DNA of 55,474 bases from a virus, in the IMG/VR virus record IMGVR_UViG_3300010300_000015, positions 1 through 55,474 of that record; one strand, given 5' to 3'. Shown piece after piece: positions 6,820 through 46,310 of this stretch. Both the position numbers and the translations under genes were made by a program. A model generated the notes under the pieces. The model did no database searches, was not told where the DNA came from, and saw nothing but the letters and a program-made list of their open reading frames with translations. Position 1 is the stretch's first letter; each line of letters starts with the position of its first letter.

Positions 6820-7545
6820 CTATTTAGTTTGAGTTTCATAGTATTTTGTATAGTTTGTATCACTAATTAACTCTTCTACTCTACTAGGACTAAAACCAGG
6901 CACACCTTGATCATATTCTGTGTAGGGATGTAGTTGTTTAGATGCTGCATCTAGCAATTCATTCCTTTCATCGAGTGCCATAAACTTAAAGGCAAGCATA
7001 TATCTATTCCACAAGAAGTATGGAGTAGGTGTGCGAGCACTGTGAGGTATTCTCCCATCAAAGATAACAACTCTGCCAGGTTTAGGACAGACAGCATGAA
7101 GAATATCTAGATTGTGATCATAGAATATAGTTTCACCACCATAGTTAGGTATCCAAAACTCATTCATATACACAATCATTGTGACCTGATTGTCACACCA
7201 ATGTGGTGCATCACAATGTATGCGTGGAGCATCACCAAACTTCAGCACATTCATATATGCACTGTAGAGATCTTTCCTGGGAGGTATTGGACAGCGGAGA
7301 GATTCCAATCTATCTAACACATTCTCATAGAGAGGATTCAGACTGCATTGTGTGAAAGGTGTGGTGCCATGATGATCCACACTGTAGAAATCATGGGTGT
7401 AATATGTGCCACGAAGATCTACCTCTTCTATATTAGTTTGGGGCAGATCCTGTCTACCATGCCAGTAGGGCAATTCAATAACTCTCTGGCATATCTCACT
7501 GTCTAGAATGTCAGTGTCAAATACTTGAATCAAGGGATGTTGCAT
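6820..7545 (-). CDS. 2OG-Fe(II) oxygenase, prolyl-4-hydroxylase-like (cluster member 5)
   Basis: A 241-aa Fe(II)- and 2-oxoglutarate-dependent dioxygenase. The iron ligands are H110-C-D112 and H168 (RIPHSARTP), and R181 in LWNRYMLAFKF is placed to bind 2OG. The strand YGGETIFYD between them is typical of the P4H superfamily. Such enzymes hydroxylate protein side chains or small molecules; nothing in the sequence fixes the substrate. It overlaps the upstream oxygenase by 16 bases and is the last of five in a row, all in the same direction as the fibre genes upstream. Confidence 0.85.
   Translation of the reverse strand: MQHPLIQVFDTDILDSEICQRVIELPYWHGRQDLPQTNIEEVDLRGTYYTHDFYSVDHHGTTPFTQCSLNPLYENVLDRLESLRCPIPPRKDLYSAYMNVLKFGDAPRIHCDAPHWCDNQVTMIVYMNEFWIPNYGGETIFYDHNLDILHAVCPKPGRVVIFDGRIPHSARTPTPYFLWNRYMLAFKFMALDERNELLDAASKQLHPYTEYDQGVPGFSPSRVEELISDTNYTKYYETQTK
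6821..6827 (-). promoter_or_regulatory. T4-type late promoter motif (CTAAATA)
   Basis: Minus-strand ACTAAATAG overlaps the stop codon of the last oxygenase gene and lies 25 bases before the ATG of the 52-aa gene. Confidence 0.5.
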
Positions 7546-8198
7546 GATACTAGAGCAGTGATATTCAATGTCATTACATAACGTGTGCCCTGTCCATTGT
7601 TAGGACCAGTGCGATGACGTAACCATCCAGGAAAGAATAGCACGTCATTTGTCTTAACTGGTATATCTATCCAGTTATCTTCGTTGGGCATTTCATACTC
7701 ATCAGACACAGGTTCTGAGAGTTTGTATATATCAAATGGATTCTTGATCTGTAAGTTACCACTACCCTCAGGCACCTGTAGATAGGCAACCACGGCAACT
7801 GTGACATTTTGATGATGATGCTCTAGTGTAGTTGCACCAGGAGGATGTCTATTGATCCACGATTCTGTGATGTTTCGATATACTCTCTTCAGTGACCATC
7901 TATCCCAAATGTCATCAACAACCATGGGGATATGATTGCCAGTAAAGTCTTCAAATACTTTCCATCCATGTGGAGGATCGTGCCTACATCTACCAACAGA
8001 TGATGTGCCACCCTTCTCAAGTGCAGAGTTACGATATACACTCTGAGGATCATCAATGATGTCTAGATAATAATCAGTCTCTGGGATTATTTCATTCCAG
8101 ATGTCAGTGAAATCATATTGTGACCTGAAGATGAATGGATAAGGATTAACGGATTGAATACCATTTCCTATCAACTGGTCGGGTAAAGGATTTCGCAT
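7530..8198 (-). CDS. 2OG-Fe(II) oxygenase, 2OG-FeII_5-like (cluster member 4)
   Basis: A 222-aa putative dioxygenase. The core reads ESWINRHPPGATTLEHHHQN, with the first iron ligands among H127-H129, then a strand with a YLQVPEGSGNL turn, then the distal H195 in FFPGWLRHRT and R206 in TRYVMTLNI. This order matches the family annotated in phages as putative 2OG-Fe(II) oxygenase type 5. The start ATG at 8198 lies 53 bases inside the upstream gene. Substrate unknown. Confidence 0.8.
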   Translation of the reverse strand: MRNPLPDQLIGNGIQSVNPYPFIFRSQYDFTDIWNEIIPETDYYLDIIDDPQSVYRNSALEKGGTSSVGRCRHDPPHGWKVFEDFTGNHIPMVVDDIWDRWSLKRVYRNITESWINRHPPGATTLEHHHQNVTVAVVAYLQVPEGSGNLQIKNPFDIYKLSEPVSDEYEMPNEDNWIDIPVKTNDVLFFPGWLRHRTGPNNGQGTRYVMTLNITALVSCNIP

Positions 8199-8868
8199 GA
8201 TACAAATGATAGTGATGGACAGGAATACTTAAAGAGATTCTTTCTTCAGATGGTGATGCACAATGATAACATCTTGGTGGTATGTATAGAGCATCTCCAG
8301 GTTTCAATATTACATCAATAGCAGGAGTGAATGAATCATAGTTTACTGTTGGATCACCTGGGTCTGCTTGAATCACAAATGTTGCACGTCTTTCATTATA
8401 TACACGCCAATGAGTTGTGCCCTTCAACTGCACAATAAAGTTACTAGGTAGATCCTCATGAATATAAAAACTATTACTCTTTCCAAGACCACAATAGATC
8501 TGAAATTGTGAATCGCCAGGGAATATTGACTCCCATTCGCCCACCATTTCAGACCTACGTCTATCTCTGAATGAATAGTTGTTGATGATAATTGTGTGCC
8601 CATCTCTCAGGGCATGAAACAATTCCTCTTTCTCTTCAAAATCATACTTAGACCAACTACGAGCATATTTGGGCGGATTGATCTTTTCAATTCTATGACG
8701 ACTGACAACATCAATATCAAAGAATTGTGGGTTGTTTAAGCAATACTCAACATCACTCCATGTGCAAATAGAATTACACTCTTCCTGATCGATTACACCC
8801 TCATAGTAGTGTGGGACATCATGATCCCAGTCTCTATCGTATAGTTTAATCGGCAATAATAACGTCAT
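8146..8868 (-). CDS. JmjC/cupin_4-like oxygenase (cluster member 3)
   Basis: A 240-aa cupin-fold protein unlike its P4H-type neighbours. FYIHEDLPSNFIVQLKG supplies H137 and D139 as iron ligands followed by a hydrophobic strand and TTHWRVY, and KPGDALYIPPRCYHCASP supplies H202. This is the layout of the ribosomal-oxygenase group (RoxA/MINA53-like, cupin_4), whose known members hydroxylate Arg or His in ribosomal proteins. A protein substrate is therefore plausible but not shown. Its start lies 23 bases inside the upstream oxygenase gene. Confidence 0.8.
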   Translation of the reverse strand: MTLLLPIKLYDRDWDHDVPHYYEGVIDQEECNSICTWSDVEYCLNNPQFFDIDVVSRHRIEKINPPKYARSWSKYDFEEKEELFHALRDGHTIIINNYSFRDRRRSEMVGEWESIFPGDSQFQIYCGLGKSNSFYIHEDLPSNFIVQLKGTTHWRVYNERRATFVIQADPGDPTVNYDSFTPAIDVILKPGDALYIPPRCYHCASPSEERISLSIPVHHYHLYHAKSFTRPVDRKWYSIR

Positions 8869-9502
8869 CGGGCATACCGTGGAAGTTGAAGTTTAATACA
8901 ATTCTATACTGCGATTGCACAGGATTAGATGATCCGTGGTATCTATTACCATCAAACAATACAAACTTGTTTGCCTCTGGTTTATGTCTCTCACATACAG
9001 TGTATTCTTGATTGAATGTATTGAATATTCGATCATTCAATTCTTTGGTTGGATCATCAACCTGATCAAATAACACTGTGTCACCATCAGCATCATGGAA
9101 ATAGAATAGTCCTGTGTGATGCTTAGTCTCGTGATCTGTGTGTGGTGTGTTGTAATCTTTGACATGATGACTATTATGCAGCATCGCAAGTCTCAGTCGA
9201 AAGATATTAAAACTGCAACCAAGTCTGTCTTGAATGTGATCTACAATGGGAATGAATAGATCATAATATTGTGATACTGGTTCACTGTCATGACACAGCA
9301 CATGAGTCCAACCACATGATGTTTGATCGGTTGGACTCATCCCAAATAGATTTTGATCACCAAACTTATACTCATACCCACTGCCATATGTGACATCATT
9401 GGGCAGGAAATACCAAGGGAATCCCCTGCTCGTCATCACATCATTCAGGCGATTCAGATACGCTTTGGGTAAAAGATTCGATAGACTTCTGGATACTGCC
9501 AT
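8846..9502 (-). CDS. 2OG-Fe(II) oxygenase (cluster member 2)
   Basis: A 218-aa dioxygenase with an intact facial triad: H121-T-D123 in NTPHTDHETKHH, H189 in FDGNRYHGSSNP and the 2OG-binding R200 in SQYRIVLNFNF. The N-terminal helix LLPKAYLNRLNDVM followed by FPWYFLPND is typical of phage members of this group, which favours ATG at 9502 despite a 62-base overlap with the upstream gene; ATG at 9436 is the alternative. Substrate unknown. Confidence 0.85.
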   Translation of the reverse strand: MAVSRSLSNLLPKAYLNRLNDVMTSRGFPWYFLPNDVTYGSGYEYKFGDQNLFGMSPTDQTSCGWTHVLCHDSEPVSQYYDLFIPIVDHIQDRLGCSFNIFRLRLAMLHNSHHVKDYNTPHTDHETKHHTGLFYFHDADGDTVLFDQVDDPTKELNDRIFNTFNQEYTVCERHKPEANKFVLFDGNRYHGSSNPVQSQYRIVLNFNFHGMPDDVIIAD

Positions 9503-10121
9503 AGTTAATATGTGTTGAATACAACGTCACATTGAAAGAGTAAGAGATTCTCTCCTCACTGCCTTTATTTGTCTCTACTCGGTGCAGTGTGTCTGCTGGG
9601 AAGATAAACAACTGATCAGGTTCGGGATCATATGCTGCTATCTCATTGTTTAATGGATTGGTGCCATGCACATAGTTATATGCTGTGCCCCAAGACTTAA
9701 ACTTATGCCCCTCATCAAATGGTCGGAGGAATGTGATACCACCAGACTTTGGGGGCACCTTAGCATAATAAACACCAGCAAACATTGCACCAGGATGTGA
9801 GTGACAATGATTGAGATCTCCAGGTCCATTGATATTTAACCAACCATTAGTGATCAGCATGGCAAAATCTTTGAATCCAAGATCCTGACATGCTACATCC
9901 ACTGCACTATAGATTACCTCAGATAATCCCTTCCATGGTTCTATGGTGTGAATCATTTCACTTCCCCAATCATTTGATTGGTATCCACCTTCATTTGATG
10001 CTTGTCTACCAGACATTGCACCACGATGGTCAATAGCAAAGTCAACGAATTGTTGGGTGTCTAGTCCACAATCCTTCTGGTGCCAGATACCTCTGGGAAA
10101 CCAGTAATCACATTTCAACAT
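9441..10121 (-). CDS. 2OG-Fe(II) oxygenase, 2OG-FeII_5-like (cluster member 1)
   Basis: A 226-aa putative dioxygenase. LNHCHSHPGAMFAGVYYAKV carries H107-S-H109-P, the hallmark of the type-5 phage family; the distal ligand is H180 in FPADTLHRVETN and the 2OG-binding residue is R191 in EERISYSFNV. It is separated by two bases from the coiled-coil gene upstream and is first of the five oxygenases in transcription order. Relatives are common in cyanophages, where their targets are unknown. Confidence 0.85.
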   Translation of the reverse strand: MLKCDYWFPRGIWHQKDCGLDTQQFVDFAIDHRGAMSGRQASNEGGYQSNDWGSEMIHTIEPWKGLSEVIYSAVDVACQDLGFKDFAMLITNGWLNINGPGDLNHCHSHPGAMFAGVYYAKVPPKSGGITFLRPFDEGHKFKSWGTAYNYVHGTNPLNNEIAAYDPEPDQLFIFPADTLHRVETNKGSEERISYSFNVTLYSTHINYGSIQKSIESFTQSVSESPE

Positions 10122-10123
10122 AA

Positions 10124-10495
10124 TTATTCAGCGAAAGTAAACTCTTTGTCGGTTACATTGGGATCCACATGGATACTATACAGATACAATGCTTCGATAG
10201 CACCCTGCAGTTTATTCAACTTATCTTTCTTCTCTTGCATACCCTCAAGGGACACACGAGTTACTGTAGATGAATAGGAAAGGTTATCCAATGCCTCAGT
10301 GAGTTTCCTATACTCAGCGATAGTCTCTTCATACTGAGAAATAAGATCTGCTACCAGTTGATCATATGTCAACCTCACAGGATTGCCATCCTCATCACAG
10401 AAGATACCTAATCTCTCTTCTTTGCTGACACCTGCCAAATCATTGATGTCTACATTCTCAACTTCAGGCAGATTACTAAACGTTTGTGCTTCCAT
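10124..10495 (-). CDS. Coiled-coil hypothetical protein, 123 aa
   Basis: After an acidic N-terminal segment the protein is largely helical (ISQYEETIAEYRKLTEALD and EKKDKLNKLQGAIEALY), so it is probably a dimeric or trimeric coiled coil. It starts in a TAATG overlap with the upstream DUF6065-like gene. Its position between halogenases and oxygenases in a late operon could mean a scaffold, carrier or small structural protein; none of this is shown by the sequence. Confidence 0.65.
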   Translation of the reverse strand: MEAQTFSNLPEVENVDINDLAGVSKEERLGIFCDEDGNPVRLTYDQLVADLISQYEETIAEYRKLTEALDNLSYSSTVTRVSLEGMQEKKDKLNKLQGAIEALYLYSIHVDPNVTDKEFTFAE

Positions 10496-11346
10496 TAGTT
10501 AAACCTCTCTAGATTCTTATTTAGTGAGTTGATCTTGGCATGGTCTTTAATACGCTCATCCAAGGTTGTGTTTTCGATGAATGATTTAGTCTTCAAATAA
10601 TCCATCATCTGCTCGCATTTGTAGTCATGCTCATTAGCAGTCTCTACAACAATTTGAAACTCACTAGAGTCCAACCATTTGCGAGGAATAGGAATCCATT
10701 GGCACAATGGTGTGCCTGCTTTTACAATGTGATCACCCTCCATAGCGTGCCAGAAGAGTTGCACATTGATTTCATATGAATACTGTGGATCCACTATACC
10801 ATAAGGAGCACTAAATCTCATGTCTTCATGATATGCAACTGGAATCTGCAAGATAACAATATCAGGGTGTGCTTGCACTCTCCAGGGTGTCTCCAACTTC
10901 ACAACTTGACCGAGGGTTGGCATACCTTTGTTGACAAGATCTCTCATCCCATCAGTCTGTCGCTCAATGTGTGACGTGACATACTTACCACCAACAAATA
11001 ATTGTCTGGTGACCCACTGGAATGTGCCATCCTCTTTAGGACGAATAGCAAAATCTGCTGGGGCAGGGAGTATCCAACCACTGTCCATGATTGCAGTCAA
11101 TGCAGGGCAAGTTGCGGCATGTTCTTTGATGCCATTGTCCTGCATCTTGAGGTTGTCGAATGTTTCTCTGAGTGCCATCACTGGGCACTCACTACGCTTC
11201 TTTGCCTGATCTTTGACTACATCAACTCTCCACTTTCTCTTGAGTTTCTTAGAAGGATACAGAGGGAAAAACTCTGCAACACCAGCGTCCATAGAATAGA
11301 ATCTAATCCATGGTTTCTGAAACTTTGCTTTAATCTTTTTCCACAT
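10495..11346 (-). CDS. DUF6065-like protein, 283 aa
   Basis: Function unknown. A basic N-terminus is followed by a globular domain with ECPVMALRETFDN, GWILPAPADFAIRP, then HPDIVILQIPV, GIVDPQYSYEINVQLFWH and KAGTPLCQWIPIPRKW. This strand order and the final 'G.PLCQ..P.P' pattern resemble the DUF6065 family as recalled; a search is needed to confirm it. The start overlaps the end of the second halogenase by 17 bases. Placement between halogenases and oxygenases suggests a joint role, perhaps as a substrate or partner. Confidence 0.6.
   Translation of the reverse strand: MWKKIKAKFQKPWIRFYSMDAGVAEFFPLYPSKKLKRKWRVDVVKDQAKKRSECPVMALRETFDNLKMQDNGIKEHAATCPALTAIMDSGWILPAPADFAIRPKEDGTFQWVTRQLFVGGKYVTSHIERQTDGMRDLVNKGMPTLGQVVKLETPWRVQAHPDIVILQIPVAYHEDMRFSAPYGIVDPQYSYEINVQLFWHAMEGDHIVKAGTPLCQWIPIPRKWLDSSEFQIVVETANEHDYKCEQMMDYLKTKSFIENTTLDERIKDHAKINSLNKNLERFN
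10518..10524 (-). promoter_or_regulatory. T4-type late promoter motif (CTAAATA)
   Basis: Minus-strand ACTAAATAAG lies 23 bases before the ATG at 10495, inside the end of the upstream gene. It would allow late transcription of the coiled-coil gene and the five oxygenases. Confidence 0.5.
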
Positions 11347-12958
11347 AAATGTAGTCCCTCAAGTATTCGTAGTGTGTTGGAAGTTGTCTGACTGCATTAT
11401 ATATTGCCTTGCGATCCTCTTGCCATTGTTTGTGGTAATCATTGATTGTTGACTTCCTGACAGGATACAAGTGGTGTGCCTCATAAACATTAAACTCGTT
11501 GATTGGCGAGAAATCCTGACCAGCAGCGATGTAGATTAGACCAGCAAACTTATCTTCACTCCAGAAGTTTTTCCTGAGTCCATCAAACAACTGATAGTAT
11601 TCCAACCTAGATTGTAGCATACTATGCCAAGTAAGGGGATCTTCCTTAATCTGGAAGAGATCATTCTTACCTGCAAAGTCTACATTTGCACAGTCTCTCC
11701 AGTATTTCGTATCATCACGACCTGTGAGGACATAATGCATCGTAATGAAATTCTTCATGGACTCGATAGCATTATCCACAGTGTAGTTGTATGAATCAAC
11801 ATCAATACGAGTGACCTGATTGCGTCTCATGAGAGTATCAATCAGATAAAGGATATTCTCATGAGTTGTCATCAAACCAGTAGATTCCAGTGGTTCTAAG
11901 AATCCATATGCAAGACCGATACCAACAACATTCTGCACCCACGCCTTCTTACGCTTACCATGTCTGATGTTGATCAGTTTATATTGGGCAGCATCGGCAA
12001 CCTTTGGACTATACCTCTTCGCAATGTATTCAACAAACTCTTCATAAGCAATGTCTGGGTCAATATACTTCTTGCTGAATACATATCCAGTGCCAACTCT
12101 ATCCCACAGTGGGATATTCCACACCCAACCACTAGACAATCCAACACAGTCAGTATAGAGATCCATCTGATTCTCTCTGTCTGTATAGTCAACACGAGCA
12201 GCAAATGCTGTGTCATTAAACAGCACATCATTAAATGATACAAACTCAGATCCCATGATGCCTTCAAGCACCACAGATTTGAATCCTGTGCAGTCGATGA
12301 AGAGATCTGCCTTTACAACTTGAGCAGCACCTGTGCCATCATCAACAATCACAGATGCAAGTCTGCCGTCAGGTGTCTTCACACCACCAGACACAGTGCC
12401 ATATACTCTGGTGATTGCATCTTTGCAATATTCTTTGTCTAGATACTCACCAAACTTCTCAGAGTCCATGTGATATGCAGTATCTTCAGAGAATCTCCAA
12501 GATGGATGCTCATTGCACACATAATCGGAAGTAATCCGATTTTCCTCTGCCATAATGGTATTTGGATTGAAGAATCTAGCAAACTCTTCAGGTGGATAGT
12601 GTTGAGGGAATCTTGCCCTCAACTCAAAGAATGTCATGTAATCACTTCTATAATCAGAGTGATCAATTCTTCCGAATGGATACTGAAAACGCTCACCCTC
12701 TCCATCTCTGAAGTTTTGGAAAGCAATAGATGACTTGTAGGTTGCACTACAATATGGCATCCACTCTCTATCACTCAGACCCAGAAATCTGAAGAATCTG
12801 TTGATATGTCCAAGGGTAGATTCACCAACACCAATGATATTCCTATCTTTAGGTTCGATGATAGTAATATCTTTCTCAGGAAATGCACGCAGCAGAGCAG
12901 CAGCAGTCATCCATCCCGAAGATCCCCCACCAACAACACAGAATGAATCAATTCGCAT
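11330..12958 (-). CDS. FAD-dependent tryptophan-halogenase-like protein 2
   Basis: A 542-aa member of the flavin-dependent halogenase family (PrnA/RebH type). Features in order: FAD-binding VVGGGSSGWMTA (8-19), GVGESTLGH (43-51), the catalytic lysine K75 in ATYKSSIAF, IDCTGFKS (221-228), the family signature WVWNIP (278-283) and LEPLESTG with the active-site glutamate region (354-361). All residues needed for making HOCl or a lysine chloramine are present. Known enzymes chlorinate or brominate Trp or other arenes and need reduced flavin; no flavin reductase is visible in the window. It overlaps the first halogenase by 11 bases. Confidence 0.9.
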   Translation of the reverse strand: MRIDSFCVVGGGSSGWMTAAALLRAFPEKDITIIEPKDRNIIGVGESTLGHINRFFRFLGLSDREWMPYCSATYKSSIAFQNFRDGEGERFQYPFGRIDHSDYRSDYMTFFELRARFPQHYPPEEFARFFNPNTIMAEENRITSDYVCNEHPSWRFSEDTAYHMDSEKFGEYLDKEYCKDAITRVYGTVSGGVKTPDGRLASVIVDDGTGAAQVVKADLFIDCTGFKSVVLEGIMGSEFVSFNDVLFNDTAFAARVDYTDRENQMDLYTDCVGLSSGWVWNIPLWDRVGTGYVFSKKYIDPDIAYEEFVEYIAKRYSPKVADAAQYKLINIRHGKRKKAWVQNVVGIGLAYGFLEPLESTGLMTTHENILYLIDTLMRRNQVTRIDVDSYNYTVDNAIESMKNFITMHYVLTGRDDTKYWRDCANVDFAGKNDLFQIKEDPLTWHSMLQSRLEYYQLFDGLRKNFWSEDKFAGLIYIAAGQDFSPINEFNVYEAHHLYPVRKSTINDYHKQWQEDRKAIYNAVRQLPTHYEYLRDYIYVEKD

Positions 12959-14459
12959 ACAATGTCCTCAAGTAATAATGATACGGCACTTCACAATATC
13001 TATCCAAATCCCAATGGTCGTAATTCCAACTAGGACTCCAACTATTCAAGTGTGACTCTTCTGGAATTGGACCATAAAACAAAACTTCTTTTTCAATTAC
13101 TTCATTGAATGGATTCCATCCATGTCCCGCCATAACAGACATCAGTGAGTCGCCAGTAAATCCATTGTTGAAGTTTAATTTACCAGCAAAGTTAACAGAC
13201 TCCTCCTGAAGAAGTATAGAAGCAGACTCAAGCATACCTTGCTGAGGATATTTTGTGTTGGATACTGCTTGCCAATAACGTGTATCATTGCGTTGTGTCA
13301 TACTATAATGCAATGCAACGAAAGATGCAAATCCATCAAATGCAAAGTTGACTTGTTTGTTGAATGTGTCACGCATATATTGTGTGACAACATCTCTACC
13401 CTGTATCTGTCGGACAAATCTGAGCAAAAACTCATGCACAGATAGTAATCCATTTGACTCTAGTGGTTCTATAAAACCAGCAGACAATCCGATGGACAAA
13501 ACATTATTCCACCAGATTTCTTTCTTTCGTCCAACTTTGAATTTAAGGTTTCTAAGCAGGACCAATTCGTCATGCTCATCACCGAGGTGTTGTTGAAACT
13601 CTTCACGAGCATCATCGTCTGAAATGTATTTGTCCGAATAAACATAACCTGTCCCGATTCTACTCCAAGTTGGCACTCTCCACACCCATCCAGAGGATAG
13701 TGCTGTGCATTGAGTATACGGCACCATCTCAGATGCCTTGTCTTTGTATTGCAAACGTGTCACCCATGCAGAGTTATTGGGTAACCAGTCGGAGTAATCT
13801 ACCCACTCAGATTGACTCAAAAGAGATTTGAATCCTGTGCAATCAATGTAGAAATCACCATCATCATATCGTTTGCCGCCAATCATCAGGGACTGCACAT
13901 ACTTGTCCTCACCATACACAACACCATTTACATCAGCAAGTATGTGAGTGACTTTATCTTTGCAGTAATGATCTCTCAGATAATGAGCAAATTTGACAGC
14001 ATCAAAATGAAACCCACTGTTGTGCCTGAGTGAAAAATATGGGGCATTTATGGGCAGAATTGATCTTTCGGCACATTCTGCCGCCACGAAATAATCCCTG
14101 GCAAACTTATCATTCTTCCACCCTTTCTTGTATGCATTCCAAAACCATACGTCTGGTGCTGGTGCATCATATCTGGGGGATCCAAAAGGATACTGCCAAG
14201 GATCATCCTTATCTTTGTGGAAGTTAGAAAACCTGACGCTAATCTTGTACGTTGCGTCACAATGAGGCATCCAGTCCTCATCTGTGAGACCAAGATAGTG
14301 TATCCATGGTCTAAAATACTGAGTCGTAGACTCACCTACACCAACTGAAGGCACGTTGGGGGACTCTACGACTACAATATCGGATTGTGGAAATGCTTTC
14401 ACCAGTGTGGCAGCAGTCATCCAACCAGATGATCCACCACCAATAATATAAAATTTCAT
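12948..14459 (-). CDS. FAD-dependent tryptophan-halogenase-like protein 1
   Basis: A 503-aa paralogue of the following gene. It has IIGGGSSGWMTA (5-16), GVGESTTQY (40-48), K72 in ATYKISVRF, IDCTGFKS (205-212), the signature WVWRVP (258-263, V in place of I) and IEPLESNG (330-337), so it looks catalytically intact. The two proteins differ enough to suggest an old duplication or separate acquisition and perhaps different substrates or regiochemistry. It follows a small fibre-associated gene by 3 bases and is translated just after it. Confidence 0.9.
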   Translation of the reverse strand: MKFYIIGGGSSGWMTAATLVKAFPQSDIVVVESPNVPSVGVGESTTQYFRPWIHYLGLTDEDWMPHCDATYKISVRFSNFHKDKDDPWQYPFGSPRYDAPAPDVWFWNAYKKGWKNDKFARDYFVAAECAERSILPINAPYFSLRHNSGFHFDAVKFAHYLRDHYCKDKVTHILADVNGVVYGEDKYVQSLMIGGKRYDDGDFYIDCTGFKSLLSQSEWVDYSDWLPNNSAWVTRLQYKDKASEMVPYTQCTALSSGWVWRVPTWSRIGTGYVYSDKYISDDDAREEFQQHLGDEHDELVLLRNLKFKVGRKKEIWWNNVLSIGLSAGFIEPLESNGLLSVHEFLLRFVRQIQGRDVVTQYMRDTFNKQVNFAFDGFASFVALHYSMTQRNDTRYWQAVSNTKYPQQGMLESASILLQEESVNFAGKLNFNNGFTGDSLMSVMAGHGWNPFNEVIEKEVLFYGPIPEESHLNSWSPSWNYDHWDLDRYCEVPYHYYLRTLYAN

Positions 14460-14462
14460 AGA

Positions 14463-14870
14463 TTATTCAGGAAATGGTTCCCATGCTTTACGACCAGGGA
14501 CTTGGACTTTGCGAATATCCTCTACATACTCGGGAGCAGTAGATGGAGCAGCAGTTGTTGCTTTGACGTTTGCTATATGATCTCTGAAGCGAGTGCCACC
14601 ATCGAGTTGATCCTTATAGATCATATCGAGTTGCTCACCCATACTACCATAAGCAATCATTCTTTGCACAGTAAGTGCTGCCTGTTGATCTTCCAATTCG
14701 TCTCTATCATACACCACGCCATTGATCATGACAGACTGGTTAGTAGTGTCATCAGGGACATCACACCATTTCATGTTGGCGTCAGCACCTTCATAAATTT
14801 GAAATTCATCACCTGCTTCGCAGATGTCGGTGATAATACCAGAATCACCCTGTACAATTGCTCTTTTCAT
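14463..14870 (-). CDS. Small fibre-associated protein, 135 aa
   Basis: The N-terminal part (GDSGIITDICEAGDEFQIYEG) is a short beta-rich domain. The C-terminal part contains AYGSMGEQLDMIYKDQLDGG, the 'GDQLD..Y.D...G' helix found in many small proteins encoded next to marine phage tail fibres; their role is unsettled (assembly or fibre tip). It has its own late promoter motif at 14896 and an AAGGAG ribosome site, and leads directly into the first halogenase. Confidence 0.7.
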   Translation of the reverse strand: MKRAIVQGDSGIITDICEAGDEFQIYEGADANMKWCDVPDDTTNQSVMINGVVYDRDELEDQQAALTVQRMIAYGSMGEQLDMIYKDQLDGGTRFRDHIANVKATTAAPSTAPEYVEDIRKVQVPGRKAWEPFPE

Positions 14871-14895: not shown

Positions 14896-14903
14896 TATTT
14901 ATC
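14896..14903 (-). promoter_or_regulatory. T4-type late promoter motif (GATAAATA)
   Basis: Minus-strand GATAAATA lies about 26 bases before the ATG at 14870, followed by the ribosome site AAGGAG. It is the nearest promoter upstream of both halogenases. Confidence 0.6.
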
Positions 14904-15711
14904 AACCGTAAAACTCGTGGACCACAACAACACCTTGACGACCTCTAGCACCTCTATCGCTGTGCTGAGATCCATTGCCACCTGCACCCCAGGCAGCATG
15001 GTTTTCGTGTCTATGTGAATAATTACCTTGTCTATGTGAGGACGGTTGAGATCCTCCATAATAAGATCTACCGCCAGAGTGGTTGCCATAACTGTGGTGA
15101 GATCCGTGACCATTGCCACCACCACCGTGGACATTCAGGTTTCCACCTGATCCATTACCACCATAACCTCCAGAGTGCTGTTGGGAGCAGTTAGCGCCAA
15201 CACCACCAGAGGCAGACAGATAACCACCAAAACTAGATGTGTTGCCATTGCCACCACATCCTGAGTAGTTTGTGCCACCACCAGGATTACCCACAGTAAC
15301 GGAAACAGATGCGATGTTAGTAACATCTAAAACACGCTGAGACATACCACCAGCGCCACCAGATTCAGTATACCCAGATCCACCACCACCAGCACCAACA
15401 ACGGTGATCATAATGGATTTAACGTCTGAGGGTCTACTCCAGGTGCCATTACCTGTCCAGACCTGCATCGATCTGAATCCAGATGTGGAAGAAACATTAC
15501 CCCAGGAAAGATTCGTGCCATTTGTCTGCAGGTATTTTCCTGCCTGACCACTCATACTTGGAATAATATACTTGGAAGTGCCAGTAATTGTGCCGTTAAT
15601 GGTCAAGTCGCCACAGGTCAATGATGCCTCTGCGGTGATGCCACCAGTGGTTAGTGTAAATCCAGAGATACCAGCGAGGTCTCTAACTTGGGTTACTCGT
15701 ATAGTGCTCAT
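14902..15711 (-). CDS. Gly/His-rich tail fibre paralogue A, 269 aa
   Basis: An N-terminal beta-rich attachment region (LAGISGFTLTTGGITAEAS, TINGTITGTSKYIIP) is followed from about residue 82 by WTGNGTWSRP and VVGAGGGGSGY, the start of a glycine-rich phage fibre domain. The last third is rich in Gly, His, Ser and Tyr (HGSHHSYGNH, SHRHENH) and ends GRQGVVVVHEFYG. Such domains are thought to form the receptor-binding tips of fibres. It is close in sequence to paralogues B and C upstream. A late motif lies at 15740, inside the end of gene B. Confidence 0.8.
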   Translation of the reverse strand: MSTIRVTQVRDLAGISGFTLTTGGITAEASLTCGDLTINGTITGTSKYIIPSMSGQAGKYLQTNGTNLSWGNVSSTSGFRSMQVWTGNGTWSRPSDVKSIMITVVGAGGGGSGYTESGGAGGMSQRVLDVTNIASVSVTVGNPGGGTNYSGCGGNGNTSSFGGYLSASGGVGANCSQQHSGGYGGNGSGGNLNVHGGGGNGHGSHHSYGNHSGGRSYYGGSQPSSHRQGNYSHRHENHAAWGAGGNGSQHSDRGARGRQGVVVVHEFYG

Positions 15712-17297
15712 CTAAAATACAACTCCACCCTTGCAGATCTATTTATCCCAGTGCGGTTTTGGCAGCAACTGATTCTATCACCAGCACTGTAGTTACCGAA
15801 GTTACTACTCATACCAATACCACCTGACACGTCGTCAGAGTTCATGTCTGCTTCAGGATAACCACCTGATCCACCACCGTTTTCATTCCATCCAAATCCC
15901 CAACGTGTGCGTGCCCACCCACCATTGTTTCTATAGTTGAAACCATAGAATCTAACGTGCGATTGACCAGAGAAGTTATTGATACCACAGAATTCATTGG
16001 CATTAGTCTTGTAGAATCTATCAACCTCATTCCAGAAGTTGATGGGATAGATTCTACCACCACGTCCATATCCTGTGTTGAAGTCAGTCTCAAACCATGT
16101 CCAACCACGATTACTACTAGGGACGCAACCTCCGCTGCCAATATCAGGCCAAATCGCCATAATGTCCTTGGCAGGGAATCTATTCATGACCTCAAATTTG
16201 GCATCACCATCATTGGTATTGTACTGAGTTTCGTTGAGGACGTTATCACTTGTCCAGTAATTTGCTCCCCATTGGAATGTGGTGCCACGGGTCGCTTTCA
16301 TACCCATCATCCAACCACCACCCAACCAGCGATCATCCATCAAGCAATAGATTTGTCTGGTGCGACCACCATCCAGGGCGATCCAGTAAACACCATCAGA
16401 TGCACCAGGATTTCTTCTCTTAATTTCTTGAGCAGAAGGGGCAGCAGTTGCTTCAGTTGTGCCGTAAGTGGTATCAGCAGCAGATGGTCTACCATAATAC
16501 TCATGGACCACAACAACACCTTGGCGACCAGAGGCACCACGGTTACTATGCTGAGATCCGTTACCACCAGCACCCCATGCCGAGTGACCTTCATGTCTGT
16601 GGGAGTAATTACTTTGTCTGTGGGATGACGGTTGACTTCCCCCGTAGTAACTTGCGCCACCAGCGTGGTTTCCATAACTGTGGTGGGAACCATGTGCATT
16701 CCCGCCTCCACCGTAGACGTTTAGTGTACCACCAATACCTTCTCCCCCTAATCCACCTTCGTGTTGCTGAATACAATTAGATCCGCCTCCACCAGCGCCA
16801 CTGCAATAGGATCCGAAAGATGACGTGTTACCGTTACCACCACACCCAGCATAGTTATTGCCACCACCAGGATTACCAACAGTAACACTAACTGAAGTAA
16901 CATTGCTGACATCAATAACTCTTTGTGCCATTCCACCAGCACCACCTGCTTCACAGTATCCTGATCCACCACCGCCAGCGCCAACAACTGTGACCATGAT
17001 TGACGTGCAATCGTTAGGTCTATTCCAGGTGCCATTACTTGTCCAGACCTGCATCGATCTAATACCAGACACACCTGCCTGATCAACCCACGCCATCGAT
17101 GTGCCATCTGTTTGAAGAAGTCTTCCTGCATTACCACCCTGTTTGGGGATAATGTGATTGGACTCTCCGATAATAGCACCATTCAGGATAAGGTTACCAA
17201 CCACAAGAGGCAGCGTTGCAGTGATGCCACCGTTAGAAAGTTGGAAACCACCTGTATCGGTGAGGTCGCTAATTGAAGATACTTTGAGTAGACTCAT
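15708..17297 (-). CDS. Gly/His-rich tail fibre paralogue B with fibrinogen-like C-terminal domain, 529 aa
   Basis: Residues 1-268 repeat the plan of paralogues A and C: attachment strands, WTSNGTWNRP, VVGAGGGGSGY, a His/Gly/Tyr-rich tip (HGSHHSYGNH, SHRHEGHSAW) and GRQGVVVVHEYYG. A linker (AADTTYGTTEATAAPSAQE) leads to a second domain beginning near residue 292: RNPGASDGVYWIALDGG, then IYCLMDDRWLGGGWMMGM, which is the start of a fibrinogen-C-like recognition domain with Trp/Asn-rich loops to the end. Fibrinogen-like domains bind sugars or acetyl groups, so this is a candidate receptor-binding extension. It ends in an ATGA overlap with paralogue A. Confidence 0.8.
   Translation of the reverse strand: MSLLKVSSISDLTDTGGFQLSNGGITATLPLVVGNLILNGAIIGESNHIIPKQGGNAGRLLQTDGTSMAWVDQAGVSGIRSMQVWTSNGTWNRPNDCTSIMVTVVGAGGGGSGYCEAGGAGGMAQRVIDVSNVTSVSVTVGNPGGGNNYAGCGGNGNTSSFGSYCSGAGGGGSNCIQQHEGGLGGEGIGGTLNVYGGGGNAHGSHHSYGNHAGGASYYGGSQPSSHRQSNYSHRHEGHSAWGAGGNGSQHSNRGASGRQGVVVVHEYYGRPSAADTTYGTTEATAAPSAQEIKRRNPGASDGVYWIALDGGRTRQIYCLMDDRWLGGGWMMGMKATRGTTFQWGANYWTSDNVLNETQYNTNDGDAKFEVMNRFPAKDIMAIWPDIGSGGCVPSSNRGWTWFETDFNTGYGRGGRIYPINFWNEVDRFYKTNANEFCGINNFSGQSHVRFYGFNYRNNGGWARTRWGFGWNENGGGSGGYPEADMNSDDVSGGIGMSSNFGNYSAGDRISCCQNRTGINRSARVELYFR
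15740..15747 (-). promoter_or_regulatory. T4-type late promoter motif (GATAAATA)
   Basis: Minus-strand GATAAATA, 29 bases before the ATG at 15711, followed by a GGTGGAG ribosome site. Confidence 0.6.
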
Positions 17298-17317: not shown

Positions 17318-17325
17318 TATTTATT
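17318..17325 (-). promoter_or_regulatory. T4-type late promoter motif (AATAAATA)
   Basis: Minus-strand TTAATAAATAAATC lies about 21 bases before the ATG at 17297 and reaches the stop codon of paralogue C. Confidence 0.6.
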
Positions 17326-18133
17326 AACCCCAGTATTCGTGGATAACCACGATACCTTCACGACCTCTAGCGCCTCTATTACTATGGCGAGATCCGTTAC
17401 CACCAGCACCCCAAGCAGCGTGCAATTCGTGTCTGTGTGACCAGTTAACTTGGTTGTGACCTGCGGGTTGTCCACCACCATAATAACTAACGCCAGAAGC
17501 ATAGTTACCATAACTATGGTGCGATCCGTGACCATTACCACCGCCACCATGGACATTTAGAGCTCCACCAGATCCATTGCCACCGTAACCTCCAGCGTGC
17601 TGCTGAGAGCAGTTAGCACCAATACCACCAGAGGCACTGCAATAAGATCCAAAAGAGGAAGTGTTTCCGTTACCACCACAACCAGAATAGTTGTTACCAC
17701 CACCAGGAGAACCAACAGTAACGGAAACAGATGCGATGTTAGTAACATCAACCTGTCGTTGGGACATGCCGCCAGCACCGCCTGCTTCGCAGTAACCTGA
17801 CCCACCCCCACCTGCGCCAACACATGTGACCATGATGTTTTTACATCCAAATGGTCTGGTCCATGTGCCATTAGCAGTAAATACCTGCATTGATCGGATT
17901 CCTGCTCTGGTGCTCAATGGTGACCAGGTAGGATTAGTGCCATCGGTGCTTAAAAATGCACCACTTTGACCTGCTTGAGATGGCACAATATAAGAAGATG
18001 ACCCAGTAATAGTGCCATTGACAACTAGATCGTTAACGGTCAAAGTACCACTCACACTCACTGTGGAGTTACTAACTGTAAAACCTACAGATCCTGATGG
18101 GTCTTGAATTTGATTAACTCTAAGTAGTGCCAT
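17324..18133 (-). CDS. Gly/His-rich tail fibre paralogue C, 269 aa
   Basis: Same length and plan as paralogue A: LVVNGTITGSSSYIVPSQAG, FTANGTWTRPFG, CVGAGGGGSGYCEAGG, HGSHHSYGNY, NWSHRHELHAAWG and the ending GREGIVVIHEYWG. Differences are concentrated in the N-terminal region and in a few tip positions. It follows the 111-aa gene after one base. The three copies lie consecutively, so homologous exchange among them is possible. Confidence 0.8.
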   Translation of the reverse strand: MALLRVNQIQDPSGSVGFTVSNSTVSVSGTLTVNDLVVNGTITGSSSYIVPSQAGQSGAFLSTDGTNPTWSPLSTRAGIRSMQVFTANGTWTRPFGCKNIMVTCVGAGGGGSGYCEAGGAGGMSQRQVDVTNIASVSVTVGSPGGGNNYSGCGGNGNTSSFGSYCSASGGIGANCSQQHAGGYGGNGSGGALNVHGGGGNGHGSHHSYGNYASGVSYYGGGQPAGHNQVNWSHRHELHAAWGAGGNGSRHSNRGARGREGIVVIHEYWG

Positions 18134-19386: not shown

Positions 19387-19393
19387 TATTTAG
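19387..19393 (-). promoter_or_regulatory. T4-type late promoter motif (CTAAATA)
   Basis: Minus-strand ATCTAAATAC overlaps the stop of the 1190-aa gene and lies 21 bases before the ATG at 19366. Confidence 0.5.
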
Positions 19394-22300
19394 ATGACCA
19401 ATTCTCTAACATGCACAGTATCCCCTGTTTGAGGAATTGTGCCGATGGAGAAGTCAACAGAGTTACCGACAACTTGATAATCAACTCCAGGCGTTTGGCA
19501 AACACCATTCAAGAATACAAGCAGTGAATATGCACTGTGACCAGAAGAGATAGCAAATGTTGAGGTTGCACCGTCGCCTGCATAGGTTGTCCCATTGTTA
19601 GCGTTAGCAATACCCGTCGCCAAAGAGTATTTATCTACAGCACCATACTTACCTGTAACTTCCAGATCGCCCTCAACGTGGAGGTTACCACCAATCTTCA
19701 TTCTATTTGTTGCATCTGGTGCAATACCAACACCATAATGTGTCACACCACTATATCTATTAGATGTGATAGCAGTGGTATCACTGAGACCAAACTTATA
19801 CCAGACGTTGTTGTCATAAATCCAACCCAGTGCTTGACCAGGGGTCCAGTCAATGTTATAGCACATGTCGCCTGTGTTAAAGGCAAGACCTGTCTCAAGA
19901 TCGGGAAGACCATTACTATCTTCCTCAGCAAGGAAGGTCTTCCTCAAAACAGTGCCATCATCGTTAGAGTATGTAAACTCTAGAGACTGAATCTCATCCT
20001 GTGATGTAATCTTCTTCTGGAAGGTTACAGGACCAGAGAATACAGATTCCAACTGGTTAGATGCACCACCAATAACAGTCAGTTTGTCGGTAAGCACCAA
20101 CTCAGAGAAAGTTTCAATGGTTGTGTCTTCTTCACCCAACACATTCAATTGTGCAATATCTTCGTTAGTGATCTGACCTGTAACTGGGTTGATAACTTGG
20201 TTACCAACAAACAACTCACCGTCAGAGTTAACACCAGAATAGTATGCCACACCTGCTGCTTCTTTGAGTGACTGAGACAATCTAACTTGCTCAGGACTCA
20301 ACACTTCCACCTGTGTAGAGGGGAATGCAGTTGAGTAGTTACCAGGACCGAAACCAAGATATTCAAACGTGTGACCAGATGCTCTAAGAATGGAGTATCT
20401 TCTCAACTCAATGAGCAAGGGTTGGACACTACCATCAGAGTTAAGTTTCAGAGGAATCTTACGCTCTTCAGCATCACCCAGACGTGCAGTAACTGAGATA
20501 CCATTCAGCACGTTAGATGCAGTGGTATAACCAAGGTTGTTTTGACTCTCTTGCAGGAAATACTGTGCTGTCTCCTTAGTAATAGACAACTGAGTATTGA
20601 GATTGGGAGTGGGTTGTGCTCCATCAGTTGTCTTCACAAGACCTAAAGTCTCGTTATCTGCAATAGAGATGGATGCTGCAGGGTCTGCAACAGGGTTGTC
20701 TCTGTCAAATGCAGGATAAAGGTCAACAGTTTGCTGAGAGAATTCAAAGTCATCAAAGTTGGTTGTGGTCGGAGTTACCGAAGCATTCAACAATGTCAGA
20801 TAATAGATACCATCAGCAACACCACGCTCAAACACTTGATATGTTTCAACAGCGTAAATGTAGTATGTCCTAGTATATGCAGGAGAGTTGGTTTCAGAAG
20901 ATCTCGGTTGAATCACGAAACCCGTGATGGGCACTCTGGGCACAGGGAATGCATCCTTGTCCAGCACATAACGATAACGATAGATTCTGTCAACCAAGTT
21001 ACGAGCATCGGGCACACGACGGATAAATGTTGTCGGTGTGAATCCAAGATTCTGATAGATGCTATTGGACTGCAGTGTGGTGTAAATGGTATTAGCAGTG
21101 CTTTCTACTTGGATATACCAGTTACCAACAGCAGAGTCCCACTTGAGAGGTGATTCATCATCACCAGCAGCGGTGCCTGTAACTGTAGGACCAGTGGGTG
21201 TAATGTTTGCGTAGTGTACAGTTGGTTCGGTTGCACCAGAAGCAATCAACTGCACATAGATTTTATCAGGACTGTTGACATCATCCTGCCTAGCACCAAT
21301 AGTGTAACCCTGAATCTTTGTGGGAGGTCTACCAGTCTCTACAGAATAACCATACAAGTAGAGTTTTGTTGGGTCTGCTGCAGCACGAGTCTTGTTAATG
21401 TCAATCGTGATCCAGTTGATAGCGATCTCATCGACATCATCAAGAGATTTTGGTGGAATAACGTGTGTGAATTGTCCTGCTTTATCTTTGGTGAATGCTG
21501 CTGACTTAAATCCTTTAGATCTAAGTGATGTGTTACCAAAGTTAGAGTTGGAGTTAGTAATTGAAAGGTCACCACCACTCTCTGAGAAGAAGTGATCACC
21601 AAATCCCACAGCAAACACAGACACAACCTGAATGAATGCGTCATTCGATGCTTTAATGTGTGCGTGTCTCCATCCTTTGCGATACTTCGCTAGACCGTTA
21701 ATGTGAGCACCAGATCCTGCTGCTTGTGCTTCATATTGCTCAGTCGTTGGGTTGTATACAACGAATGCTCTGTCATCTTTTTGTAGTGAAATGCCAGTAA
21801 ACTGTGCAACCACCATCGATTTGAAACCAGTTGCTTCAGCACCATCAGCGTGCATACCATTGATACCCCACACCGATCTAAGTGAGAGGTTGAATGCATA
21901 TGGAGATGCAGAGTCAACTGTATCAATCTCAACCTTCACCAGGATATTACTACCGATAGCATTACCTGAAGGCTCAGATGACATCTGATAGGTAAATTGG
22001 TTACCTTGTGCTGAGGTTACGAAGAATGACCCGTTATATAGTAACTGATCCTGATCAGTAGGACCAGTGACGCCAGAAATATTAACTGCCACACCCACCG
22101 AGAAACCGTGATTCTTGGGGTTACCCAATTCATCAACGGTAAATGCCGTTGCCGTCTGACCATTTCTAATAATCTGAGAAACAGCAAATTCGTCCGAAAT
22201 CGGACCCACAATTCTGTTTTCCTCAACTCTCGCCTGCAATTGGTCTTGAGAGATGATACCAGAGGAGTCAGGAATTGTAGCGTATGCTTTAGAGATCTTC

Positions 22301-22962
22301 TGGTAATACAGGTTAAGATCTTCTGTATTAGCGAAGGTGAAGCAAGTTAGTTTGTGGTGTGAGAAATTTGGGGCAATTTGGGACAAATCGTCACGGTAGT
22401 AGACCCCGTTAGTGTCACCATCAAAGAAAGAAAACTGCCAGAAGTATGTTGCACCAGTAACCTTAAAGATGGATGTAGCTACAGGTTCATTGGCAGCAGT
22501 AATGCCCAAACTACCCTGCACTGTTGGGTATGGGACATACTTAGGCACAATTTTTGTGCGTCTTAGGTCAGATCCAACAACGGAGCAACCTCTAGGACAG
22601 ATAACACCACCCCTAACTGAGTTAAATTTATATAACTCGTTGGAAGCAGAGGTGATATCGAAGTTAGTATTTTCGTTAAATGGTTGAATCTGGTTGTAAT
22701 CAGCAAGACCAGGACGGTTGTCGATTACATATTCAGATGGATACAAATAAATCGAGAAGGCGTCAAATTCGTCGTTTGACAGACCCACTCGATACGAAAA
22801 TCTAGAGACTTCAAGAAAGGCACGCTGCAACGTCTTAAACGGACGCAATGCCGAGTTACCTCGGTTATCATATGCGTCCGATGCATCGAAGTCATCAGGG
22901 TTGACGTAGATAATACGTCCCGTCCTAGACGTGATGATATTCTTAAGACGAGTAAGTGCCAT
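19390..22962 (-). CDS. Large virion structural protein with beta-helix, 1190 aa
   Basis: The N-terminal part reads TSRTGRIIYVNPDDFDASDA, then GNSALRPFKTLQRAFLEVSR, a signature recalled from a long structural protein of T4-like cyanophages, probably attached to the baseplate or a fibre. The repeated short strands around residues 90-400 fit a right-handed beta-helix (pectate-lyase-like). The C-terminus has NNGTTYAGDGATSTFAISSG and LLVFLNGVCQTPGVDYQV, a fold common at the ends of phage fibres. Probably a trimeric virion component; exact T4 counterpart unknown. Confidence 0.75.
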   Translation of the reverse strand: MALTRLKNIITSRTGRIIYVNPDDFDASDAYDNRGNSALRPFKTLQRAFLEVSRFSYRVGLSNDEFDAFSIYLYPSEYVIDNRPGLADYNQIQPFNENTNFDITSASNELYKFNSVRGGVICPRGCSVVGSDLRRTKIVPKYVPYPTVQGSLGITAANEPVATSIFKVTGATYFWQFSFFDGDTNGVYYRDDLSQIAPNFSHHKLTCFTFANTEDLNLYYQKISKAYATIPDSSGIISQDQLQARVEENRIVGPISDEFAVSQIIRNGQTATAFTVDELGNPKNHGFSVGVAVNISGVTGPTDQDQLLYNGSFFVTSAQGNQFTYQMSSEPSGNAIGSNILVKVEIDTVDSASPYAFNLSLRSVWGINGMHADGAEATGFKSMVVAQFTGISLQKDDRAFVVYNPTTEQYEAQAAGSGAHINGLAKYRKGWRHAHIKASNDAFIQVVSVFAVGFGDHFFSESGGDLSITNSNSNFGNTSLRSKGFKSAAFTKDKAGQFTHVIPPKSLDDVDEIAINWITIDINKTRAAADPTKLYLYGYSVETGRPPTKIQGYTIGARQDDVNSPDKIYVQLIASGATEPTVHYANITPTGPTVTGTAAGDDESPLKWDSAVGNWYIQVESTANTIYTTLQSNSIYQNLGFTPTTFIRRVPDARNLVDRIYRYRYVLDKDAFPVPRVPITGFVIQPRSSETNSPAYTRTYYIYAVETYQVFERGVADGIYYLTLLNASVTPTTTNFDDFEFSQQTVDLYPAFDRDNPVADPAASISIADNETLGLVKTTDGAQPTPNLNTQLSITKETAQYFLQESQNNLGYTTASNVLNGISVTARLGDAEERKIPLKLNSDGSVQPLLIELRRYSILRASGHTFEYLGFGPGNYSTAFPSTQVEVLSPEQVRLSQSLKEAAGVAYYSGVNSDGELFVGNQVINPVTGQITNEDIAQLNVLGEEDTTIETFSELVLTDKLTVIGGASNQLESVFSGPVTFQKKITSQDEIQSLEFTYSNDDGTVLRKTFLAEEDSNGLPDLETGLAFNTGDMCYNIDWTPGQALGWIYDNNVWYKFGLSDTTAITSNRYSGVTHYGVGIAPDATNRMKIGGNLHVEGDLEVTGKYGAVDKYSLATGIANANNGTTYAGDGATSTFAISSGHSAYSLLVFLNGVCQTPGVDYQVVGNSVDFSIGTIPQTGDTVHVRELVI

Positions 22963-46068: not shown

Positions 46069-46310
46069 AATGGTAACACTCCTCTACTTGTTCGTTTTAC
46101 ATAATTGAGTTTTTGTGCATCCCATTTGAGTTTGTCCTTCAGAGGACGAGAGATTAGTTTGTTAACGATCTCAATTTCGATCTCATATTCCTCACAAATT
46201 GTGGTGACTGCCTCAATGTAATTCAACAGACCACCACTATCTTTCACTAACTCTTCAACTAATGATGTAAATTTGCCTTGTGTCATAAATTCCTTTTCAA
46301 GTTCATCCAT
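46065..46310 (-). CDS. 33: Late transcription coactivator gp33-like, 81 aa
   Basis: MDELEKEFMTQGKFTSLVEE, then GLLNYIEAVTTICEEYEIEI and VNKLISRPLKDKLKWDAQKL agree with gp33 of cyanophages as recalled. In T4, gp33 links RNA polymerase with the sliding clamp and acts with sigma gp55 at TATAAATA promoters, which are abundant in this window. It overlaps both neighbours. Confidence 0.85.
   Translation of the reverse strand: MDELEKEFMTQGKFTSLVEELVKDSGGLLNYIEAVTTICEEYEIEIEIVNKLISRPLKDKLKWDAQKLNYVKRTSRGVLPL

Follow-up and report, generated by a model that had tools for sequence, protein, structure and literature searches.

Halogenases and Fe(II)/2-oxoglutarate-type oxygenases linked to glycine-rich tip genes in a T4-like cyanophage: a probable cassette for modifying the receptor-binding tip

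We analysed a viral record of 55,474 bases (IMG/VR IMGVR_UViG_3300010300_000015; the whole stretch is referred to below as the window) of a T4-like cyanophage, with P-TIM40 as its nearest annotated relative, and found that its gene block at 6820-14459, which encodes two flavin-dependent halogenases and five iron(II)/2-oxoglutarate (Fe(II)/2OG)-type oxygenases, probably forms the enzymatic part of a cassette for modification of the phage's receptor-binding tip. Gene content, motifs and order are established here, the linkage of the enzymes to glycine-rich tip genes recurs in many distinct phages and behind two fibre types, and a tip-tailoring cassette best explains this linkage. From it we infer that the tip is the substrate, and likewise which residues would be changed, in which order the steps would run and what the change would bring about. 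Each enzyme family is already known, while the observation is more general than was seen by the first-pass annotation of this DNA, which had linked the enzymes to the fibres and favoured modification of virion proteins. The favoured reading is supported by the linkage of tips and enzymes in 40 of 40 loci; as to the link itself, the partner is a glycine-rich tip together with a chaperone-like gene, not the whole fibre.

On the fibre side, the window holds a large fibre gene at 19390-22962 (phrog_529), a phrog_7459 gene, a small open reading frame (ORF) without a family and three glycine-rich tip genes. Next come p1787, the halogenase pair, p7084, the coiled-coil-like gene and the five oxygenase genes, every one of them on the minus strand. 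All ten of these minus-strand ORFs, p1787 included, were present, head to tail with almost zero spacing (from p1787 onward 3, -11, -17, -1, 2, -62, -23, -53 and -16 nucleotides (nt)), and the overlaps of up to 62 bases described earlier were borne out, the largest lying between 9441-10121 and 8846-9502. The features are:

17324-18133, minus strand: glycine-rich tip A; 269 amino acids (aa), 60 Gly, 11 His; PF21722 Gly_rich_2 3.2e-13; phrog_863
15708-17297, minus strand: glycine-rich tip B with an extra C-terminal domain; 529 aa; PF21722 8.5e-10; phrog_863 and phrog_1325
14902-15711, minus strand: glycine-rich tip C; 269 aa, 64 Gly, 12 His; PF21722 1.3e-11; phrog_863
14896-14902, minus strand: late-promoter-like ATAAATA ahead of the p1787-halogenase gene run
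14463-14870, minus strand: p1787, chaperone-like protein; 135 aa; phrog_1787 5.5e-22; model predicted local distance difference test (pLDDT) 92.6
12948-14459, minus strand: flavin-dependent halogenase 1; 503 aa; PF04820 3.8e-101; VirX1 (6qgm) 6.4e-93
11330-12958, minus strand: flavin-dependent halogenase 2; 542 aa; PF04820 1e-97; VirX1 (6qgm) 5.8e-133
10495-11346, minus strand: p7084, predicted dUTPase-fold protein; 283 aa; phrog_7084 5.9e-69; model pLDDT 90.7
10124-10495, minus strand: coiled-coil-like protein (name from the first-pass annotation); 123 aa; no convincing family found in Pfam or PHROGs
9441-10121, minus strand: 2OG oxygenase of PF13759 type, HxH variant; 1.3e-18; His columns
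8846-9502, minus strand: 2OG oxygenase of phrog_274 type (HTD...H); PF13640 1.5e-4, below cut-off; phrog_274 2.3e-35
8146-8868, minus strand: JmjC_2 oxygenase (HED...H); PF08007 2.3e-18; nearest solved relative the NO66 histidyl-hydroxylase, 3.1e-7
7530-8198, minus strand: 2OG oxygenase of PF13759 type, HxH variant; 6.5e-17; His columns
6820-7545, minus strand: 2OG oxygenase of phrog_274 type (HCD...H); PF13640 1.3e-8; phrog_274 4.5e-28

The linkage was quantified by scanning a collection from a VirX1-type halogenase start (best 80 loci of 583 relatives) and in other scans (best 80 of 241, 581, 600, 129 and 592 relatives), with some contigs shared by the halogenase and tip scans. Labels for halogenases, oxygenases and tips came from profiles grown from the window proteins, the halogenase profile merging VirX1-type with PrnA-type enzymes; in a random 100 of the 1159 oxygenase-labelled ORFs, the two metal-binding His columns were found in 99 and 98. 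After clustering tip loci at 90% identity and leaving out the 3 of 43 with less than 4 kb downstream, we found p1787, a halogenase and at least two oxygenases (mean 4.8) within 8 kb in all 40 distinct viral tip loci, together with the coiled-coil-like gene in 36, a JmjC_2 gene in 36 and p7084 in 31. The p1787 gene directly follows the last tip in the locus maps (40 of 40 loci with enough sequence), the place of a fibre chaperone of the Pam3 gp25 / Tfa type, and a halogenase lay within 6 kb in 42 of the 43 distinct tip loci; in the remaining one, the contig stretch stops at the tip. Hence the gene order does occur in other marine phages and tracks with Gly/His-rich tips. Within this tip group the enzymes were not scattered among unrelated genes, as 271 of the 290 same-strand ORFs of at least 100 aa that lie up to 6 kb past the last tip belonged to cassette families. 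Tips and p1787 stood on the opposite strand from the enzymes in three loci (L027, L032 and L038).

Controls gave a lower association. With near-copies at 90% and loci with less than 6 kb of flank left out, a glycine-rich ORF lay within 6 kb in 40 of 54 VirX1-type halogenase loci (0.387 oxygenases per kb), compared to none of 36 PhoH loci (0.066 oxygenases per kb; a halogenase nearby in 2 of 36) and 16 of 58 PrnA-type halogenase loci (0.284 per kb), with Fisher p of 8e-14 against PhoH and 1.5e-6 against PrnA-type, which supports a tie between enzymes and tips. On an 88-row halogenase tree, the character "glycine-rich ORF within 6 kb" showed 15 changes, no fewer than 12 of them on supported branches, where shuffled labels gave a mean of 29 changes and none of 500 shuffles was as low as 15; a glycine-rich neighbour and at least three oxygenases occurred together in 41 rows, both were absent in 24 and the two disagreed in 23 (15 and 8; Fisher p 1.6e-5 before tree correction). 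We drew a second tip kind, also glycine-rich, from halogenase loci that fall outside the phrog_863 group. An oxygenase was present within 3 kb in all 55 of its loci with enough sequence, 50 of them had two or more, and one had a halogenase (25 of 80 loci were left out because the sequence past the last glycine-rich ORF was shorter than 1.5 kb or because such an ORF was not called). This constant company of oxygenases likewise favours the tip as substrate; the oxygenases are the wider core, and the halogenase is an addition.

Bacterial halogenase loci bear on the second possibility raised in the first-pass annotation, that the enzymes tailor a small molecule. Such a product could for example be a halogenated aromatic protecting the infected cell or harming its rivals. 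Neither tip, p1787, p7084 nor coiled-coil-like profiles were matched in any of 80 such loci (an oxygenase occurred in 5), whereas tips and a chaperone-like gene are the recurring neighbours in phages, an absence that supports tip modification. Furthermore, a Pfam search of the ten block proteins at E 0.1 gave no nonribosomal peptide synthetase, polyketide synthase, carrier or precursor-peptide family, although a short precursor peptide could escape such a search. In favour of a small molecule, VirX1 halogenates many free aromatics in vitro, as reported in PMC8407142, and an antibiotic-protection role was once proposed for a cyanophage halogenase, in a passage that calls it speculative (PMC2984593). 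On balance, we consider this alternative unlikely.

Among isolates, P-TIM40 (NC_028663) carries the identical gene set in the same order, so the earlier suggestion that such a row of enzymes is out of the ordinary is not supported; a paper on this block was not found in the open-licence literature. The core set of tips, p1787, one or two halogenases and varying oxygenases was found in P-TIM40, S-SZBM1, S-WAM1, P-RSM6 and Syn10, and also in S-RIM44, Sf-FP1, Sf-FR1 and S-CREM1. As S-RIM44, Sf-FP1 and Sf-FR1 place it behind a different giant fibre, just before the neck gene gp13, the set keeps together in different surroundings, and its recurrence behind both this fibre and the phrog_529-type fibre argues for a functional tie to the tips. 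Tips found by BLAST came from 19 phage records, all among the halogenase records, a count limited to BLAST-found tips because BLAST missed S-RIM2. More distant arrangements were seen in HTVC008M, with six oxygenases between a halogenase and a 33%-Gly protein 8 kb away, and in S-H38, with a halogenase, oxygenases and a JmjC_2 gene within ~5 kb and a 36%-Gly protein ~4.5 kb from the halogenase; the halogenases of P-SSM2, S-PM2, S-MbCM6 and S-H35 do not adjoin glycine-rich tips. Two cultured pelagiphages agree with the arrangement seen for the second tip kind. HTVC023P has a set of four glycine-rich genes with 24-25% Gly, next to a gene of 172 aa and three oxygenases, and beyond these a 27%-Gly gene and another oxygenase, and HTVC033P holds two 34%-Gly genes flanking a 163 aa gene, then two oxygenases; a halogenase was not seen in 12.5 kb of either.

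These loci also speak to whether the substrate could be another virion protein, for example the fibre shaft, with the tip merely its neighbour. The phrog_529 fibre gene and p7459 precede the tips in many loci, and the S-SZBM1 fibre counterpart _52 is among the proteins found in virions (PMC9146016, Table 1). Yet on the gp13 side the giant fibre is a different one while tips, p1787 and enzymes stay, and the two pelagiphage loci share glycine-rich proteins and oxygenases with the window but not its fibre. We therefore regard a substrate other than the tip as very improbable.

The two tandem halogenase-like genes proved intact as first described. Both keep GxGxxG (GGGSSG), ATYK, EPLES and WxWx(I/V)P, the last as WVWNIP in one and WVWRVP in the other, and the catalytic Lys and the EPLE glutamates were invariant in a 15-row halogenase alignment. 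As judged from their sequences, both are VirX1-type enzymes, with VirX1 of cyanophage Syn10 as the closest solved relative. A Syn10 ORF matches the VirX1 PDB chain (6QGM) end to end and is the second of two tandem halogenases that lie behind tips and p1787 and are followed by p7084, coiled-coil-like and oxygenase genes; VirX1 is thus itself a cassette member, which adds support for tip modification. VirX1 is a studied biocatalyst; the review table in PMC8407142 gives it without a gene cluster, and the review's passages on it name no natural substrate. Elsewhere in the window, 51513-52655 encodes a third, compact halogenase-like protein (380 aa; phrog_2928 4e-65) with GRGSSG, EPLQ in place of EPLES and no WxW, which is probably altered or not a halogenase.

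The proposed partners of these enzymes are the three tips, in all of which the PF21722 domain scored above the Pfam cut-off (39.5-50.7 bits vs 24.3), and p1787; a PDB sequence search with the tips gave zero matches. The C-terminal domain of tip B (phrog_1325, 15711-16484), which may resemble fibrinogen-like domains, has a profile matched by four ORFs of the first 96 sources. For p1787, Pfam and PDB sequence searches gave zero relatives, and its predicted model has beta strands followed by helices. Foldseek ranked first among 350,542 chains a 162-residue chain of the Pam3 fibre entry, at a weak E of 2.3. This fold likeness is suggestive at the level of models, and tip modification gains from it because the p1787 model has the layout described for Pam3 gp25, a chaperone with a beta-sandwich followed by a helical domain, which wraps around the glycine-rich tip of a fibre and shields the tip's loops (PMC9608196).

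All five small enzymes matched Pfam 2OG-FeII_Oxy_3/_5 or JmjC_2, four above the cut-off and 8846-9502 below it (23.1 vs 27 bits). Both metal-binding His columns are kept in all five, with HxD/E (HTD, HED and HCD) in three and HxH in the genes at 9441 and 7530. Their earlier designation as five Fe(II)/2OG-type oxygenases is fair as a type label, since four are 2OG enzymes and one is of JmjC_2/cupin type (PF08007, 66.4 bits vs a cut-off of 22). The ribosomal oxygenases NO66 and MINA53 hydroxylate His in Gly/His-rich peptides according to PMC9994133; as the nearest solved relative of the JmjC_2 enzyme acts on such peptides, this favours a Gly/His-rich tip as substrate. The same source describes JmjC_2 relatives acting on ribosomal proteins, in line with the alternative that the enzymes modify host targets (ribosome or antenna proteins) or lower 2-oxoglutarate and so steer nitrogen signalling, the latter a role proposed for cyanophage oxygenases (PMC3037559). 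Neither host targets nor a lowered 2-oxoglutarate level, however, would account for the linkage to tips and chaperone-like gene or for the late-type motif, and we consider this alternative quite improbable. Oxygenases of the 2OG type were counted in 76 of 153 cyanophage genomes (PMC10452541), and several conflicting roles have been put forward for them, as seen in PMC3037559 and PMC9146016.

Several further oxygenase observations were made. Two more 2OG-type genes lie outside the block by profile (46303-46935 and 1696-2217), the first also by PHROGs. The family of 6820-7545 and 8846-9502 is named "DNA endonuclease V" in phrog_274 and many phage records, likely a misnaming, because both carry 2OG oxygenase motifs and Pfam matches (one below cut-off). 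A "ferrochelatase" gene of ~200 aa recurs at the end of oxygenase runs (loci L502:8313-8933, L503:9781-10425 and L007:19075-19668); the profile gave an oxygenase label to the copy of S-RIM44 and none to those of the two pelagiphages. Finally, L137:14591-15370 and similar ORFs (17 aligned) form a mostly ~260 aa family inside cassettes with the consensus PHxD...H, almost without Pfam matches (two weak DUF6445), which by this consensus is perhaps another oxygenase family.

Of the two remaining block genes, 10495-11346 had been called DUF6065-like, a name that Pfam at E 0.1 did not confirm; neither it nor 14463-14870 had any match there, and PHROGs assigned it to phrog_7084, of function unknown. 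Its predicted model has a dUTPase fold (Foldseek 1.7e-4; Z 10.0, root-mean-square deviation (rmsd) 4.5 over 128 residues). The gene at 10124-10495 gave two weak Pfam matches, both below cut-off.

The late-type motif ATAAATA lies on the minus strand at 14896-14902, 15740 and 17318. Its count over the window is 15, where 7.6 would be expected (a count of 15 was reached by 2 of 100 shuffles), and 14 of the 15 are on the minus strand, which codes for most window genes. Four of these 14 sites fall 15-40 nt before gene starts, two of them before tip genes, while shifted sites gave a mean of 0.32 and never reached four in 2000 trials. A fifth, at 14896 before p1787, was added by hand; the automatic gene list had lost the p1787 start to a longer antisense ORF that displaced it. 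Late expression of the block is therefore likely, the late timing proposed earlier being made probable by one motif, and tip modification is supported because such a motif precedes two tips and p1787. Expression time courses for P-TIM40 and Syn9 are mentioned in the literature. Of the two late motifs first reported, the one at 14896 is a credible ATAAATA, and the one at 10518 was discarded because the sequence gives no match. The exact TATAAATA was not found anywhere in the block.

Residue composition gave hints about possible targets. Because the compared tips come from different lineages, the differences among non-phrog_863 tips are a hint only: His made up 1.08% beside halogenases (42 loci) vs 0.54% without (77 loci; p 3e-9), Tyr 2.74 vs 2.29 (p 0.003) and Phe 2.59 vs 2.83 (p 0.009). 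We accordingly rejected the His enrichment as proof of His modification. Trp, which had been suggested for halogenation of the fibres, is not specially supported as a target, its share being alike (0.49% beside halogenases vs 0.48% without, p 0.50); Pro and Asn showed no difference. The glycine-rich proteins of phrog_863 loci contain 3.4% His and 1.5% Trp.

We suggest the following mechanism. Probably late in infection, the phage would make its three tip proteins, which are glycine-rich and of receptor-binding type, and p1787 would probably assist their folding. Halogen and hydroxyl groups would then be added to tip side chains, most likely in aromatic- and histidine-rich loops, by the two halogenases of VirX1 type and the five oxygenases of Fe(II)/2OG type while the tip is still separate from the fibre, and the outcome may be altered or diversified cell-surface binding or a hardened tip. 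The dUTPase-fold and coiled-coil-like proteins may, as a guess, be adaptors. We are evenly divided on the wider proposal that several marine phage lineages edit their own receptor-binding tips in this way, with oxygenases hydroxylating and, in some lineages, halogenases halogenating the loops, so that one gene could yield many binding chemistries.

Several observations weigh against tip modification. None of the data show a modified residue. Pfam matches in the block include no flavin reductase, and the fit of p1787 to the Pam3 chain is weak (Z 4.0, rmsd 2.8, 52 residues). In S-SZBM1, where _48 and _49 are tip homologues and _50 is glycine-rich, the virion list of 30 proteins in Table 1 of PMC9146016 has fibres _51 to _54 and lacks _48, _49, _50, the halogenase _46 and the adjoining oxygenases. 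Tryptic digestion should yield 8-9 usable peptides from the glycine-rich proteins, compared with 6 from _51, which was detected; the missing tips could be due to low copy, to loss or to modification. S-RIM2 has a tip, a chaperone-like gene and 2OG genes, but a halogenase is absent from the 22 kb seen; in 12.4 kb of Bellamy, four glycine-rich ORFs stand without an oxygenase; CRP-207 carries a homologue of the ~150 aa gene of the second tip kind without a glycine-rich ORF or oxygenase; and the S-H35 halogenase, 43% identical, lies away from any tip. A glycine-rich neighbour was lacking in 14 of the 54 VirX1-type loci, and a six-frame ORF that is glycine-rich by bare composition, spurious frames included, is present in 15 of the 80 bacterial loci. 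Shared ancestry inflates the counts, because the scans began from tips of known cassettes; tree-corrected independent pairs favoured an oxygenase cluster with a glycine-rich neighbour by 5.6 vs 1.0, at a non-significant median p of 0.125.

The tree-corrected result would suit the alternative that accessory genes collect at a landing site behind the fibres, with enzymes functionally untied to the tips, as would S-ShM2, which has petE and gnd soon after its oxygenases. A landing site is nonetheless hard to reconcile with the few repeating families that fill the space behind the tips (the 271 of 290 ORFs above), with the recurrence of the tip-chaperone-halogenase-oxygenase set behind another fibre or with the glycine-rich genes and oxygenases of the two pelagiphages, and it thus appears improbable.

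If the enzymes do modify the tip, VirX1 gains a native substrate, many marine-phage 2OG oxygenases move from "auxiliary metabolism" to virion maturation, and a phage receptor-binding protein would be chemically diversified by halogenation and hydroxylation. This would alter the way in which phage genomes are used to read host range and would direct attention to protein-acting halogenases. The linkage already offers VirX1 and the 2OG oxygenases a concrete, testable substrate, a virion adhesin. A report of a halogenated phage tip or of such a cassette was not found in the open-licence literature; for hydroxylation of fibres by a virus, mimivirus collagen is a precedent.

Overall, the block can be set against four known systems. 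The P-TIM40 block has the same genes and order, at 75% DNA identity over the matched parts, and differs in that its record annotates the enzymes singly. Pam3 gp24-gp25 (PDB 7YPX) pairs a receptor-binding tip rich in glycine with a small chaperone that begins with a beta-sandwich and ends in helices, as described in PMC9608196, whereas no sequence relation to the tips or p1787 was found by PDB search and the fold match is weak. NO66 and MINA53 are JmjC_2 relatives whose substrates are His in Gly/His-rich stretches (PMC9994133), but the phage protein has 240 aa vs 442-489 in the solved chains, and the NO66 alignment spans 93 residues. VirX1, finally, was characterised on free small aromatics (PMC8407142); it is the closest solved relative of both window halogenases and shares their gene surroundings.

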